DNA from: Bacteroidia bacterium
GTDB taxonomy: Bacteria > Bacteroidota > Bacteroidia > M30B66
Length of the DNA stretch: 42,881 nt
Reading direction: 5' to 3'
Assembly (NCBI GenBank): GCA_019695235.1
Contig: JAIBAI010000020.1
Span: forward strand, 1 to 42,881
Both the position numbers and the translations under genes were made by a program. The notes under the pieces were generated by a model. The model made no database searches. It worked only from the letters and a program-made list of their open reading frames with translations, and was not told the origin of the DNA. Of this stretch, positions 2,220-8,509 are shown one piece after another (positions within the stretch are counted from its first letter, which is position 1; each line of letters starts with the position of its first letter).

Positions 2220-2666
2220 ATGAAAAAGACCCTACTATCAATGATTTTTGCATCAGCATTCAGCATAGGTGCTATTGCCGGAAATGCCGAAGTATTTAAC
2301 CTGGATGAACAAGAAATCAATACTGAGTTTGCCCAGTTGAATGAATTAGAGCAGTTTGTTACAGAAAATGAGGGTATTACACTTTCTGAAATAAGCGCTG
2401 AAAACCCGCTTCTTGCAAATGTTAGTAACTCTTCTGATATTCTTGGGGTACTTTCTACGCTGGGTGAACCTCCATTTGGTGTACCTTCAATGCTTTGGGG
2501 CTTCTGCTTCGGTATTGCCGGGGTAGCCTTGGTATATTTCGTTGCTGATGACCGCGACGAAACCAAAAAAGCATTTATTGGTTGTGCTATCAGTGCCGGC
2601 TTGTATATTGTATTCTGGGTAGTGTATGTACTTGTTCTAGGAAACGCATTCTGGTTTGTTGGATAA
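2220..2666 (+). CDS. Small exported protein with two membrane helices
   Basis: 148 residues. A signal peptide occupies about residues 1-20 (MKKTLLSMIFASAFS...). An acidic, Glu/Asn-rich stretch follows at about 23-75, and then two hydrophobic segments (about 94-110 and 119-142) separated by a short charged loop with DDRDETKK. The family is not one I can name; similar small proteins of unknown function occur in Bacteroidota near envelope genes. It is the first gene of the exported-protein block and overlaps the next reading frame by 11 bases, which suggests co-expression. ATG 2220 is favoured because a TAnnTTTG element lies just upstream and the signal peptide starts there. Confidence 0.75.
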   Translation: MKKTLLSMIFASAFSIGAIAGNAEVFNLDEQEINTEFAQLNELEQFVTENEGITLSEISAENPLLANVSNSSDILGVLSTLGEPPFGVPSMLWGFCFGIAGVALVYFVADDRDETKKAFIGCAISAGLYIVFWVVYVLVLGNAFWFVG

Positions 2667-3375
2667 AGTAACTGAACTTAAAAGGAAACACAAGATAGTG
2701 TTCTCCTTTATTTTACTATTCAATTTAATGTTGCCCAATTTTTTAATTGGGCAACATTATTTTAGAATGCAGGCAGAGTTTACCATCAAGGAGAAGTTCA
2801 CTGATGGCAAAATGGCGCTGACAATGGGAACGGTATATTACGACCGTACTTATAAAAAGTTAGTGTATGACATCAGCTTCCCTGAGAAGGAAACATGGCT
2901 AATAGTTGATACGATGTTTTATAAAATCGTTGACAAAAAAATTGTGTCAAAAATGGCCATCCCGATGCTTCCAAACTCCACAATCTATGAGTTTGCATTG
3001 ATGAACAATCTTGATAATTTCGGACTTGAAAACTCATTCTATACTTTAGATAAAGTTGAGAAAGATGGCGAATTGGTGATTGCTTCATGGATGCCGGATA
3101 AGAAAATGCAGAAAGCCTTAGGGAAAATTCTGGTGTCAAAGAAAAATAACAAACTTTTTGGAATCGCTTTTTATACACCTGCCAACGAGTTGATAAAGAA
3201 ACAATTCTTCAAAGAATATATCCGCTCCTCCGGTGTGGCCTTCCCGGCCGAAACAACAGAACTTCTCTATAAGAAAAGCGGAAAAGAAACCAGAGTAACT
3301 ACCTACAAAAACCTTGTGGTTAATAATATCAAGAATGACGCGCTGTATAATTTTACTGCTCCTGGTATTCGCTGA
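2656..3375 (+). CDS. LolA-like periplasmic/outer-membrane lipoprotein-sorting-type protein
   Basis: Up to 239 residues. The frame starts at TTG 2656 (or the adjacent TTG 2659); the first in-frame ATGs lie inside the hydrophobic core of the apparent signal peptide, so a TTG start is needed to keep that signal (charged KRKHK, then a hydrophobic run ending in FLIGQ). The mature part consists of alternating beta-strand-like segments ('TMGTVYYDRTYKKLVYDIS', 'ETWLIVDTMFYKIV') typical of the LolA/outer-membrane lipoprotein-sorting fold. LolA-like proteins bind lipid or lipoprotein acyl chains in the periplasm and often pair with MMPL transporters. A 15-bp perfect hairpin lies in the signal-peptide codons (2726-2759). 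The 3' end overlaps the YidD-like gene by 41 bases. The fold assignment is an inference. Confidence 0.7.
   Translation: MLDKVTELKRKHKIVFSFILLFNLMLPNFLIGQHYFRMQAEFTIKEKFTDGKMALTMGTVYYDRTYKKLVYDISFPEKETWLIVDTMFYKIVDKKIVSKMAIPMLPNSTIYEFALMNNLDNFGLENSFYTLDKVEKDGELVIASWMPDKKMQKALGKILVSKKNNKLFGIAFYTPANELIKKQFFKEYIRSSGVAFPAETTELLYKKSGKETRVTTYKNLVVNNIKNDALYNFTAPGIR
2726..2759 (+). other. Perfect 15-bp hairpin inside a coding region; terminator-like
   Basis: TAATGTTGCCCAATT (2726-2740) is exactly complementary to AATTGGGCAACATTA (2745-2759) around a TTTT loop, followed by TTTTAG. It looks like an intrinsic terminator or attenuator after the 2220 gene, but it lies within the signal-peptide codons of the 2656 gene. 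Confidence 0.7.
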
Positions 3376-3730
3376 TTTTAAATCGTCTGCGCAATCAGAA
3401 TACCTGTATTTCCATACCAGCGAAATGGAGCAGTGCTTTAGAAAAAACACCCCGAAAACAAAGTACCAGATTGCCAGAAACAATACCAACGAATTACAAT
3501 ACCTCTTCTCAGGCTTGTTTCTGTTCTATAAGTTTGCTTTCTCTTCACAAGATGATAACCGCTGTAACTTCCACCCATCCTGCTCAGAATATGGCATGAT
3601 GGCTGTGAAGAAAAAAGGAGTCATTTTGGGTATGCTTGCTACTGTTGACCGACTTCAACGCTGCAATGGCCTAAGTCCGGAACTATACGATATTGACCTG
3701 CAAAAAAAACTACTCATTGATAGCCCCTGA
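3335..3730 (+). CDS. YidD-domain protein with an N-terminal signal peptide
   Basis: 131 residues from ATG 3335; the frame is open to TTG 3314, but ATG 3335 gives a clean signal peptide (MTRCIILLLLVF...SSAQ, residues 1-20). The C-terminal half carries the YidD (PF01809) signature: YKFAFSSQD, then C77-x-F-x-P-S-C83-S-E-Y, a Gly-rich GVILG, and DRLQRC110. Classical YidD is a ~70-85-residue cytoplasmic, membrane-attached factor encoded beside rnpA and yidC that assists membrane insertion. Here it is longer, lies away from that locus and is apparently exported, so the three conserved Cys could be oxidised in the periplasm. It overlaps the upstream gene by 41 bases and shares TGATG with the next gene, indicating translational coupling. 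The family is sure; the role is open. Confidence 0.87.
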   Translation: MTRCIILLLLVFADFKSSAQSEYLYFHTSEMEQCFRKNTPKTKYQIARNNTNELQYLFSGLFLFYKFAFSSQDDNRCNFHPSCSEYGMMAVKKKGVILGMLATVDRLQRCNGLSPELYDIDLQKKLLIDSP

Positions 3731-4548
3731 TGCGTAGTTTAATTGCCTTGATGGTGCTGCTGGTGCATCCGGTTATTGCACAAGACCTCTACAACAAAGA
3801 ACATTCAAAAGCATTTGCTGAGTACCTGTTTAAATCAGGGCAATACCACCTTGCGGCAATTGAGCTTGAACGTATTACTTTCAATGAACCCGATAATGAC
3901 TCCCTGAAAGTGATGCTTGTGAGGGCTTATTCACTCGAGCAATCTTTTGACCAGGCACTCAGAACTATCCAAAGACTTTATCCCAAAACAGAGCAATTGC
4001 AACACCCATTTGCCTCCTTGTTTGCATATAACCTGATTGAAGCAGATGAAACTGACAAGGCAATGGCAATGCTTCGTGTCAACTCAACACTTTCGCCGGA
4101 ACAGAAGCTGTGGTACGAAGGTTTTGCTTACCTCAAAAAGAATGAATTTAAAAAAACACTGCATCTGTTTTCAAATACTGACTTGCAAAACGGCTCCCTG
4201 CTGAAACTCAAAACCTTGGCGCAAGAAGGAGCTGCGCTACGGTTGAAAAAACCCTGGCTGGCAGCTTCCATGTCAACCCTAGTACCCGGAACTGGTAAAT
4301 TGTACACAGGCGACTGGAAAGACGCACTCATCAGCATGGTTTCTATCGGTCTCACAGGATACCAGGCATACAAAGGCTTTGAACGAAACGGGGTAAAAAG
4401 TACCTATGGCTGGATATATGCCACCGTTGGCACTGGCTTCTACCTGGGTAATATATACGGCTCAGTTGCTTCAGCAAAGCGTAGAAACAAGCGAAACCTC
4501 AACCGCATAAAAGCAAAAGTAGATGATACGTTTAGGTTGCACCCTTAA
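3730..4548 (+). CDS. Exported TPR protein with PGTGKLYTGD membrane tail (copy 1)
   Basis: 272 residues with a signal peptide (MRSLIALMVLLVHPVIAQ). About residues 25-165 are helical TPR-like repeats (AEYLFKSGQYHLAAIELERI and similar). A C-terminal membrane region begins at about residue 178 with LVPGTGKLYTGDWKDAL, the P-G-x-G-x-x-Y-x-G-D turn also found in TM2 and DUF5683-like proteins, and is followed by a second hydrophobic segment and a basic tail (AKRRNKRNLNRIK). The start overlaps the YidD stop (TGATG), and the end overlaps the next gene by 26 bases. It is paralogous to that next gene. TPRs usually mediate protein-protein contacts; a role in envelope protein assembly is inference. Confidence 0.8.
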   Translation: MRSLIALMVLLVHPVIAQDLYNKEHSKAFAEYLFKSGQYHLAAIELERITFNEPDNDSLKVMLVRAYSLEQSFDQALRTIQRLYPKTEQLQHPFASLFAYNLIEADETDKAMAMLRVNSTLSPEQKLWYEGFAYLKKNEFKKTLHLFSNTDLQNGSLLKLKTLAQEGAALRLKKPWLAASMSTLVPGTGKLYTGDWKDALISMVSIGLTGYQAYKGFERNGVKSTYGWIYATVGTGFYLGNIYGSVASAKRRNKRNLNRIKAKVDDTFRLHP

Positions 4549-5380
4549 ACTATTGCTGCTGTCGGCCTGGCTGGTCGGACAAACCCCTGCCGAAACATTT
4601 CAGTTCGGGCAGCGTGCTTTGCAGATGCAGAACTTTGCCCTTGCCCGACTTGCCTTCGAGCGCCTTTTGTTTTTTGAACAAGATTCATTTGCTTTTGCCT
4701 CCGCCAGCCAACTTGGACAAATTGCACGTGCTGAAAGTAAATTTCCGGAAGCAATTACCTGGTTTGGCCGTGCTGCAATATTGGCACCAAATGACATGGA
4801 AAAAGCCGGCCTTGAATTACAAAAGGCCGCAGTGTATCTGCGTATGAACGACCCCATGATGGGGCAAGCACTCTTGCTCGGACTGCCTGAAAACTTACCC
4901 GATTCTTTGCTCAAATACCAGGCTTTCCTCATGGGTGTGTCTTACTTTATGCAGTCAGATTTTACGCAAAGTCAGCAGGCGTTCAAAAAGGCACTCAGTA
5001 TAAATGACCAGGCGGGCTTGCAAAAATTAGACAGCCTGTTCGGCAAGCTTGCCCGAATAAAGCATCCCAAACCTAATTTAGCCAGATTGCTGAGCATCAT
5101 CATCCCCGGAGCAGGGCAGTTTTATGCAGGTGACATCAAGAATGGGTTAAACTCATTGCTACTGACCGGAGGCTTTCTTACACTGGGTATCTACTCTATG
5201 CTTTTTTATACCCCCTTCGATGCCATCGTGGCCATTGCTCCCTGGTTTCAACGCTACTACATGGGGGGCTATAAACGCGCCGGAATGATTGCTGCCGACC
5301 GGCTAAATCAAAAACAAAATCAGGTGTTCATGCAAATACTTGCCTGCTTCAACAGCAGCGAACCCCAGTCCCGGCAGTAG
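4523..5380 (+). CDS. Exported TPR protein with PGAGQFYAGD membrane tail (copy 2)
   Basis: 285 residues with a signal peptide (LLLLSAWLVGQ). TPR-like repeats span about residues 22-175 (FGQRALQMQNFALARLAFERL; ESKFPEAITWFGRAAIL; QSDFTQSQQAFKKAL). The tail begins at about residue 190 with SIIIPGAGQFYAGDIKNGL and has further hydrophobic segments. It has the same architecture as its upstream neighbour, so the two are tandem paralogues that have diverged strongly. ATG 4523 lies inside the upstream gene, giving a 26-base overlap. It is the last gene of the exported-protein block; a decayed sirtuin fragment follows. The specific function is unknown. Confidence 0.8.
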   Translation: MIRLGCTLKLLLLSAWLVGQTPAETFQFGQRALQMQNFALARLAFERLLFFEQDSFAFASASQLGQIARAESKFPEAITWFGRAAILAPNDMEKAGLELQKAAVYLRMNDPMMGQALLLGLPENLPDSLLKYQAFLMGVSYFMQSDFTQSQQAFKKALSINDQAGLQKLDSLFGKLARIKHPKPNLARLLSIIIPGAGQFYAGDIKNGLNSLLLTGGFLTLGIYSMLFYTPFDAIVAIAPWFQRYYMGGYKRAGMIAADRLNQKQNQVFMQILACFNSSEPQSRQ

Positions 5381-5395
5381 AAGGCCTATCCTAAA

Positions 5396-5782
5396 CGTTC
5401 AATTAATTCATCTACCACCAAGGGTACCCCAATGCCGGCGTTTTCCTGAACATGCCGGCAATGATGCGGCATGTTCAGGAAAACGTATCCGGGTCAATGA
5501 GTATCTTTTCACAACCATAGGGGGCATGATGAACCAAACCGGCGGCAGGATATACATTCAGCGATGTGCCTATCACCAGCAGATGACTTGCCGCCTGTAC
5601 CAGAGCCTTCGCATCTGTAATCAACGGAACCTCCTCGCCAAACCATACAATATGTGGCCTTAGCTGCGAACCTCCCTCACATAAATCACCCAAGGCAATT
5701 TCCTGCGACCCACTAGTATATACCTTGTCAGGATAATGCTCCCCCCGGGCCTTTCTAAGCTCACCGTGAAGATGCAGAACGC
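5396..5782. repeat. Direct repeat copy 1 (partner at 7818-8205)
   Basis: About 387 bases nearly identical, in the same orientation, to 7818-8205, from CGTTCAAT to GCAGAACGC. It flanks about 2 kb holding an IS remnant and one gene, consistent with a segmental duplication followed by insertion and decay. Confidence 0.9.
5439..5485. repeat. Perfect 19-bp inverted repeat in the sirtuin pseudogene
   Basis: CGTTTTCCTGAACATGCCG (5439-5457) and its exact complement (5467-5485) flank the loop GCAATGATG. The intact sirtuin gene has the same left arm and loop at 7861-7888, but its right arm (7889-7908) matches for only nine bases before diverging. Confidence 0.92.
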
Positions 5783-5932
5783 TCTCCTGACTTGTCCACT
5801 TCATTTTTTTTGATTTTTACAATTGTCTAATAAACAGCATATTGCCTGTGCTTTAGTGCTACATTTGTTGCACTAAGGATTTGAAGGCTCCCCTTAAAAC
5901 AGCTACAATCAAATTAGTTAATTTTGGACATA

Positions 5933-6204
5933 ATGAAAAAATCAAAATTCACAGAGACACAAATTGTAGGAATTCTATCCCAGCATGAGCAAGGATTAAA
6001 TTAGCTGACATCTGCCGCAAGCATGGTATCAGCCAGGCCACCTTCTACCAATGGTAAAAGAAGTATGGCGGAATGTCGGCATCAGAACTGAAACGACTCA
6101 AGGATCCTGAATCGGAGTTAGCGCAGTTTAAACGGATTGTGGCGGATCTGACCTTGCAAAACCGGGTTTTAAAGGATGTGCTTGAAAAAATTTTTAAGGC
6201 CTGA
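5933..6204 (+). pseudogene. IS3-family transposase OrfA remnant
   Basis: It starts as MKKSKFTETQIVGILSQ and reaches a premature TAG at 6002. A lost base moved the frame, because the next frame continues as LADICRKHGISQATFYQW, the OrfA helix-turn-helix. A TAA at 6055 then interrupts before KKYGGMSASELKRLK and the leucine-zipper-like tail, ending in TGA at 6202-6204. Two independent lesions show decay. Confidence 0.85.
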
Positions 6205-6859
6205 CGAGAAGCGCGGACTTGTAGCGATTGCGGTACAAGAGCACAACATGTCCGAATGTCAGGCCTGTAAGCTGTATCAGATCAGCACCTTGGTATATCG
6301 GTATAAGCCATTAAAAAAGAAAGACGACCAGAAGTGTCATACCTTATTGGTTCAGATGGCATACAGACGTCCCACTTGGGATTTTTGGATGATGTATTAC
6401 CGTTTGCGTAATGCGGACTGTCCGATAAACCACAAGCGCCTTTAACGTATATTTAACATTCTTGATGATTTTAACCGTGAAGCGCTGAATGCCATTGCCA
6501 AAAGCATTACGGCTCCCAAGGTGATAGATGCCCTGGGGCAACTCATAGCATGGAGAGGTAAACCGGAAAAGATACGGGTGGATAACGGGCCGGAATTTAT
6601 CGCCGAGGCATTAAAACAATTGTTTGCAGACCAGGGTATTGAACTGGTCTTTATCGAGAAAGGGAAACCATCCCAAAACGGTTTCATCGAAAGGTTCAAC
6701 AGAACCTTCCGGGAAGATGCTCTGGATGCCTACCTGTTTGAACACCTCGAGCAAGCACAGCAATACGTAAACCAATGGATGTATATGTACAACAATGAAC
6801 GGCCACACAGCGCTCAGGCCAGGCTAACTCCAACAGCGTTCCTGTTGAAATATGGATAA
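6176..6859 (+). pseudogene. IS3-family transposase OrfB remnant with internal deletion
   Basis: The first part (to the TAA at 6443-6445) encodes the N-terminal OrfB region ending NHKRL. The same frame resumes at 6446 with FNILDDFNREAL, so the segment that should hold the first DDE aspartate is deleted. The later part keeps RVDNGPEFIAEAL (second Asp) and NGFIERFNRTFRED (the catalytic Glu), and the typical end YNNERPHSAQARLTPTAFLLKYG. Without the first catalytic Asp it cannot be an active transposase. Confidence 0.87.
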
Positions 6860-7113
6860 CTCCACCTCCCACAAGGCTGGAGTGAGTTTCCCACATTCCA
6901 ACAGGACATTGTCATCAACAATAACTTTAAATCTCTATTTTTGACCGAAGCTATTTAAGGGGAGTCTTCACCAAATCTAACATCTACCACTTACACAAAA
7001 TATTTTATTGGCTCGCATATCTTGTCCGATGCTTCTAATGCATAATCTGGGACAAAAAATATATTTCACTGTATGTTTAAAAATCATAAATATATTTTAT
7101 GAAAAAGGGGGGC

Positions 7114-7801: not shown

Positions 7802-8509
7802 TTATTTATTTTTCAGGCGTTCAATCAATTCATCTACCACCAAGGGTACCCCAATGCCGGCGTTTTCCTGAACATGCCGGCAATGATGCGGCATGTTTCC
7901 TGTAAACGTATCCGGGTCAATGAGTATCTTTTCACAACCATAGGGGGCATGATGAACCAAACCGGCGGCAGGATATACATTCAGCGATGTGCCTATCACC
8001 AGCAGATGACTTGCCTCCTGTACCAGAGCCATCGCATCTGTAATCAACGGAACCTCCTCGCCAAACCATACAATATGCGGCCTTAGCTGCGAACCTCCCT
8101 CACATAAATCACCCAAGGCAATTTCCTTCGACCCAATAGTATATACCTTGTCAGGATAATGCTCCCCCCGGGCCTTTCTAAGCTCACCATGTAAATGCAG
8201 AACGCGCTCAGACCCAGCCCGTTCATGCAAATCATCCACATTCTGCGTAATAATTGTAAGCATGAAATGCTTGCTGAGCTTCACTAAGGCAAGATGTGCA
8301 GCATTGGGCTCAACCTGATCGAGCTGCCAGCGACGCTGGTTGTAAAAGCGAAGTACCAGCCCGGGATTACGCTTCCAGGCTTCCGGTGTAGCCACATCCT
8401 CAATAGCATATTCTTCCCAAAGTCCACCGGCATCTCTGAAGGTACGAATGCCACTTTCAGCACTAATCCCTGAACCGGTGACGGCCACAATGTTTACACC
8501 CGAATGCAT
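7802..8509 (-). CDS. cobB: Sir2-family NAD-dependent protein deacylase, class III type, without zinc cysteines
   Basis: 235 residues, the usual length of a bacterial sirtuin. It carries the NAD-binding GSGISAESGIR (residues 12-22), TQNVDDLHERAG with the N and D of the active site (88-99), catalytic H107 in LHLHGEL, and the later NAD-pocket GTSLNVYPAAGL. FYNQRR (residues 55-60) gives the Y-x-x-R pair that marks SIRT5/CobB-like enzymes acting on acidic acyl-lysines (succinyl, malonyl). The four zinc-binding Cys are missing; only one Cys occurs in that region, near GDLCEGGSQLRPH. It removes acyl groups from lysines in cytoplasmic proteins, using NAD. Part of the gene is duplicated at 5396-5782. 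Confidence 0.92.
   Translation of the reverse strand: MHSGVNIVAVTGSGISAESGIRTFRDAGGLWEEYAIEDVATPEAWKRNPGLVLRFYNQRRWQLDQVEPNAAHLALVKLSKHFMLTIITQNVDDLHERAGSERVLHLHGELRKARGEHYPDKVYTIGSKEIALGDLCEGGSQLRPHIVWFGEEVPLITDAMALVQEASHLLVIGTSLNVYPAAGLVHHAPYGCEKILIDPDTFTGNMPHHCRHVQENAGIGVPLVVDELIERLKNK
7818..8205. repeat. Direct repeat copy 2 (within the intact sirtuin gene)
   Basis: Near-identical partner of 5396-5782. Differences are scattered single bases plus one patch in the right arm of a quasi-palindrome at 7889-7908. Confidence 0.9.

Follow-up and report, generated by a model that had tools for sequence, protein, structure and literature searches.

Nearly all bacteria carry YidD. The canonical protein is short, has no signal peptide and works on the cytoplasmic face of the membrane, and in E. 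coli it has been connected with insertion that depends on SecYEG/YidC (Yu et al., 2011, cited in the review PMC8082313). The subject of the present analysis is a gene for a YidD-domain protein that is predicted to be exported, located in a 42,881-nucleotide stretch of DNA from a Bacteroidia bacterium (GTDB lineage Bacteria; Bacteroidota; Bacteroidia; M30B66; assembly GCA_019695235.1, contig JAIBAI010000020.1, positions 1 to 42,881 of the forward strand), which is termed the window throughout. The gene is followed by two others, TPR1 and TPR2, whose products are predicted exported tetratricopeptide repeat (TPR) proteins with a C-terminal domain marked by a PGxG motif. No description of an exported YidD or of a YidD/TPR-PGxG module was found in the open-access literature, subscription papers being mostly outside the scope of the search.

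Exported YidDs resemble canonical YidD (PF01809/TIGR00278) in having a YidD domain that scores over the curated cut-offs, the C-x5-C-S and R-x2-R motifs, a terminal D-P and a helix before the first Cys. Unlike canonical YidD, they show the pattern of a signal peptide and a linker in front of the domain, do not lie beside rnpA or yidC, have often lost the third Cys, are accompanied by or fused to TPR-PGxG proteins and fall outside the canonical clade. Other described systems are alike in part. The YfgM-PpiD pair, an inner-membrane TPR protein with its partner at the translocon, is evidence that the translocon can be served by a TPR protein in the periplasm (PMC9643414); with SecYEG it offers a working analogy of a TPR protein and a partner on the periplasmic face, whereas the TPR proteins of the window have apparently cleavable signals and a PGxG domain where YfgM has an N-terminal anchor, and show no sec linkage. 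LolA-like/DUF4292 proteins are found near MMPL/RND exporters, and the family of the window organism likewise has a LolA-like exported protein near an RND gene; unlike those pairs, the LolA match is weak here and both genes are missing in Ignavibacteria. The DUF5683 and TM2 domains share a PGxG(Q/K)xY motif followed by two helices, whereas the TPR-PGxG proteins combine this motif with TPR repeats and with a conserved tail at the C-terminus, and the matches to both families stay below cut-off.

Domain identity and predicted export

The three genes considered first are as follows.

3335-3730, + strand: exported YidD-domain protein of 131 residues, ATG start (Pfam and TIGR matches, alignments, signal statistics and AlphaFold2 model); by profile and alignment, signal peptide about 3335-3391, then a linker, then the YidD domain at residues 57-119 (3503-3691)
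3730-4548, + strand: TPR1, exported TPR protein with a C-terminal PGxG domain (PGTGKLY from residue 186, about 4285; TPR_19 match and tree position)
4523-5380, + strand: TPR2, exported TPR protein with a C-terminal PGxG domain (PGAGQFY from residue 195, 5105; TPR_2 E 4.8e-10)

From the profile matches the YidD domain identity of the 3335-3730 product is beyond doubt: it matches PF01809 at E 1.6e-17 (63.5 bits, cut-off 27) and NCBIfam TIGR00278 at 57.6 bits (cut-off 40), and all 48 members of alignment A3 match PF01809 at E <= 0.1, as 48/48 exported-type members match TIGR00278. The window protein carries C77, C83 and C110, R106/R109, DRLQRC and a terminal D129-x-P131, and agrees with the C-x5-C-S and R-x2-R-C patterns; residues Y65, S70, D73, C77, P81, C83, S84, D105, R106, R109 and D129 are invariant in alignments A1/A3. 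The preliminary description of this locus had reported an intact signature including all three cysteines. These are indeed present in the window protein, but the third is replaced in most Ignavibacteria members (RFTRD vs RLQRC), and as judged from the alignments it is not a defining part of the exported-YidD signature.

The N-terminus of the protein, MTRCIILLLLVFADFKSSA/Q, resembles a classic Bacteroidota signal peptide. Signal peptides were called with a home-made sequence rule rather than with SignalP or another trained predictor, and the pattern is uniform: among 94 distinct exported-type YidDs a hydrophobic core with a mean hydropathy >=2 was present in 98%, a net positive n-region in 97% and a small residue and then Q around the predicted point of cleavage in 98%, with a median N-terminal peak hydropathy of 3.15. 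Some 35 residues further on, past the linker, comes the usual YidD helix as a separate element, so that the predicted signal peptide is an addition and not the normal N-terminus; the possibility that it is simply the normal YidD helix was discarded, both being present in the alignment. The n-h-c pattern in the window protein and in nearly all 94 relatives thus bears out, at the level of sequence, the earlier proposal that the YidD signature follows a signal peptide, and YidD homologues in this gene context carry signals by the same rule. An alternative in-frame TTG start lies upstream at 3314. A pseudogene or a wrongly assigned start was ruled out, since reading frame and motifs are kept across many families.

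The AlphaFold2 model of the window YidD (predicted local distance difference test score, pLDDT, 75; predicted template modelling score 0.54) contains a helix at residues 53-73, two more helices and a small hairpin. No meaningful structural relative was found by searching the PDB with the window protein and the A3 profile, or by Foldseek with the model.

Separation from canonical YidD

The genome was searched by stretches and encodes an ordinary 73-residue YidD directly after rnpA (rnpA being named from its sequence); the exported copy is therefore not the housekeeping one. In a YidD tree of 129 rows the canonical proteins form one clade (support 100/99, branch length 1.22), with the signal-peptide rows, including the window protein, outside it. 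As this tree is built on 84 columns and is unrooted, it shows separation and not the direction of change. Rows L023, L050, L153 and L185, assigned as exported by the length rule, yet placed inside the canonical clade, are canonical genes with extended frames and were set aside, as was L026, which has a very long branch and lies outside that clade; none of these five long-frame proteins has a PGxG partner. Conversely, L113, labelled canonical, groups with the exported rows; its gene is of the exported type and is truncated by a contig end. L046-L048 contain large open frames that gave no useful information and were left aside. By predicted compartment, neighbours, clade and partners the exported YidD is not the canonical protein, while by domain it is a YidD. 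No exported YidD was found in a plasmid collection at the sensitivity used, which returned only canonical-type matches over 40-50% of the query.

Conservation of the gene order

The samples comprised a phylum-wide search of 247 genomes, 60 relatives and a set of named genomes (Ignavibacteriales, Melioribacteraceae, Kapaibacterium), all within Bacteroidota in the GTDB sense. About 100 distinct exported YidDs were obtained. A PGxG open reading frame (ORF) lay within 600 bp downstream on the same strand in 89 of the 97 with enough flank, two such ORFs followed in 64/69 with enough flank, and none was found downstream of 33 intact canonical YidDs. The eight exceptions are mostly canonical YidDs with falsely long frames, or loci whose partner lies a little further off. 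The YidD-TPR-PGxG order was present in Ignavibacteria, Kapabacteria and more than 15 families of Bacteroidia, and is hence conserved far beyond close relatives, as the earlier account of the locus had left to be surveyed. Many Bacteroidota genomes are without the module.

The reverse search used a TPR2 profile against the class of the window organism and matched 22 of 149 genomes at 1e-15. Ten new loci were recovered, seven with an exported YidD directly upstream and one a YidD-TPR-PGxG fusion; the other two are a TPR1 on its own, whose genome has LolA-YidD-TPR2 at a different place, and an apparent decayed second copy. One divergent exported YidD (L194) was met only through its TPR-PGxG neighbour. 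Chance overlap or chance gene order was ruled out by the order conserved downstream of exported YidDs together with the partner tree described below.

Some loci depart from the common layout. Additional, strongly diverged YidD-PGxG pairs occur in genus g124 of the window family (L180-L183), and in L182/L183 the downstream protein is about 475 residues long, with the PGxG domain in mid-protein and a further hydrophobic hairpin at its end. In L169 (G288) an exported YidD has no PGxG partner and is followed by a membrane protein of 975 residues, rich in hydrophobic segments and with TPRs at its C-terminus.

The TPR-PGxG partners, their ancestry and fusions

TPR1 matches Pfam TPR_19 at E 9.7e-5, just under cut-off, and TPR2 matches TPR_2 at 39.2 bits against a cut-off of 27; both were called exported, as first supposed. 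Residues R47, P195, G196, G198, Y201, R244 and G248 of TPR2 are invariant in alignment A2, and its AlphaFold2 model (pLDDT 92) consists of a TPR stack, the PGxG turn, a 24-residue helix and a 47-residue helix. Foldseek with this model returned generic TPR superhelices only and was uninformative for the PGxG domain. The matches to DUF5683 and TM2 reached 17.2 bits vs 26.7 and 17.4 bits vs 27.9, respectively; DUF5683 was weakly matched in 37/48 TPR2 relatives, and nothing useful on it was found in the literature. The partners had also been described as membrane proteins, for which the hydropathy is low: after the signal TPR1 has no 19-residue stretch with a mean above 1.0 and TPR2 reaches 1.5, and the PGxG domain is mildly hydrophobic overall (median best 19-mer 1.27, with 15% of 133 reaching 1.6). 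Their anchoring is uncertain, and a membrane hairpin formed by the PGxG domain is possible on these values.

In a tree of 72 partner proteins TPR1 and TPR2 part at the deepest fork (support 99), and lineages A, B and Ignavibacteria recur within each half. Two entries (L157_A1, L165_A1) break the first/second rule and derive from loci where the pattern missed TPR1 and counted TPR2 as first. Because the TPR1/TPR2 split is the deepest and the same lineages recur on either side of it, the YidD-TPR1-TPR2 order is older than the split of the sampled lineages and, going by this tree and barring transfer of the whole module, is ancestral to them. Where modules are duplicated within one genome, each keeps its own YidD and TPR set (G247, head to head; G251).

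A single protein consisting of signal peptide, YidD and TPR-PGxG was found in G109 and G337 (41% identity) and again in G398, from the window's class, so that the fusions span three genera of two lineages; in the partner tree the fused TPR-PGxG parts of G109 and G337 group with TPR1-type sequences. Since such natural fusions exist, YidD and the TPR-PGxG protein likely act together. Of the joint function originally proposed for the whole gene run, this part is strengthened, while the LolA-like protein falls outside the core, being absent in Ignavibacteria.

Locus layout and accessory genes

The run comprises six genes on one strand, between the contig edge and 5380, of which the last five are tightly packed. 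Those upstream of the exported YidD gene are listed below.

3-2069, + strand: RND/MMPL-type transporter (MMPL PF03176 E 5.4e-42)
2220-2666, + strand: small exported protein of 148 residues with a two-helix hydrophobic C-terminus (signal and two hydrophobic segments)
2656-3375, + strand: LolA-like exported protein, TTG start (PF17131 E 0.012, below cut-off)

The interval 2656-5380 originally delimited contains the genes named for it and omits the two linked genes further upstream, RND and small exported protein. The overlaps reported with it are exact on a coordinate check: 41 bases between the LolA-like and YidD genes (3335-3375), TGATG at 3728-3732 with one A common to YidD and TPR1, and 26 bases between TPR1 and TPR2 (4523-4548). 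The RND gene has its 5' end cut at the contig edge and encodes 688 residues here vs 752-758 in intact relatives. The small exported protein matched no Pfam/NCBIfam family over cut-off; its relatives retain W-G-C and G-C motifs at the helices. Downstream of the run, 5475-5804 (- strand) is a partial, near-identical second copy of an intact SIR2-family gene at 7802-8509 (- strand; PF02146), with an IS3-like transposase region of broken frames at about 5930-6860 between the two copies.

The designation LolA-like is a weak one. The window match is sub-threshold, and the LolA-superfamily structure 3buu was matched only at E 0.28; PF17131 was weakly matched in 5 of 14 relatives, the best at 8.9e-5. 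The gene lies directly upstream of the exported YidD in 13 Bacteroidia families and in Kapabacteria, and the small exported protein stands upstream of it in several Bacteroidia families. It is absent upstream of YidD in the Ignavibacteria loci, where, from reading the sequences, its place is taken by an acyl-CoA dehydrogenase-like gene, often together with a small protein. In loci such as L034 and L037 the genes on both sides of the module, named in the same way, make up a conserved block: those upstream encode an acyl-CoA dehydrogenase-like and a 92-residue protein, and those downstream 142-residue, 453-residue and LemA-like proteins. Adjacency of the RND gene is found mainly in the window's family, in members whose contigs reach that far; in this family CrcB and PAP2 genes precede it, and in L172 it lies on the same strand a little downstream of the module. 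As both are missing in Ignavibacteria, the LolA-like and RND genes are accessory; on gene content the LolA-like gene is a lineage-specific accessory and not core, and the unit is a core plus accessories.

Proposed function and alternatives

We propose that the core is an ancestral three-gene module in which an exported YidD paralogue and two exported TPR-PGxG proteins would form one periplasmic-side complex. To this reading as a whole we give an even chance, the doubt falling mostly on client and reaction and much less on the existence of a joint module, which is supported by the signal-peptide signature, the conserved order, co-duplication, fusions and separation from the canonical clade. The module would serve in envelope assembly or export. 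YidD would be exported by Sec, and its domain would then rest on the membrane surface via the helix preceding the CxFxPSC motif; TPR1 and TPR2 would bind the YidD domain and the client, and the PGxG domains would dock at the membrane. The YidD part may help a hydrophobic segment or a lipid-modified client to enter or leave the lipid layer, the role that is presumed for canonical YidD at the cytoplasmic face. A LolA-like carrier would have joined the module in Bacteroidia and Kapabacteria, and an RND pump in the window's family, to supply the client or take it over.

Several points weigh against this proposal. We know of no biochemical activity of canonical YidD and found no solved structural relative, which makes the transfer of a mechanism weak. 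Amphipathicity of the helix ahead of the Cys motif is lower than in canonical YidD (mean z 1.07 vs 1.51), and the mild hydrophobicity of the PGxG domain counts in the same direction. Export of the YidD domain is predicted from a signal peptide that rests on sequence rules, and we infer localisation, physical contact and client alike.

One alternative is a dedicated lipid or lipoprotein export path: an amphiphile would be taken from the inner membrane by RND, ferried by the LolA-like protein and delivered to the outer membrane by the exported YidD together with the TPR proteins. The run of RND, small protein and LolA-like genes with the core in the window's family is consistent with such a path, as are the position of the LolA-like gene directly upstream of YidD in 13 Bacteroidia families and Kapabacteria and the PAP2 phosphatase further upstream in relatives. 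However, Ignavibacteria keep the core with neither a LolA-like nor an RND gene, RND is adjacent mainly in one family and the LolA assignment is weak, and we consider this path unlikely. By analogy with YfgM-PpiD, the module might instead help Sec/YidC on the periplasmic exit side, with inner-membrane or secreted proteins as substrates. The link of YidD to Sec/YidC insertion in E. coli (PMC8082313) and the precedent of a periplasmic TPR protein at the translocon (PMC9643414) speak for this; but in the loci read the module is not next to yidC or sec genes, and many Bacteroidota do without it, and we consider a role of this kind rather improbable. A hydrophobic N-terminus with basic residues could in principle also serve as an extra anchor, uncleaved, of an ordinary cytoplasmic-face YidD. 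Against this stand the n-h-c pattern in nearly all 94 distinct members, with a small residue and Q at the expected cleavage site, the separate YidD helix some 35 residues later and the predicted export of the partners as well, and we regard such an anchor as very improbable.

Returning to the three-gene periplasmic complex, a periplasmic branch of YidD with dedicated TPR-PGxG partners may constitute an undescribed envelope-assembly machine, dating from an early ancestor of Bacteroidia, Kapabacteria and Ignavibacteria and helping insertion from the membrane face opposite to that of canonical YidD; this is put forward tentatively, at slightly less than an even chance. Automatic annotation names the exported YidDs 'membrane protein insertion efficiency factor YidD' though compartment, neighbours and clade differ. 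A relocated YidD domain with fixed partners and natural fusions would offer a route to learning the domain's own activity and the membrane surface that it needs.

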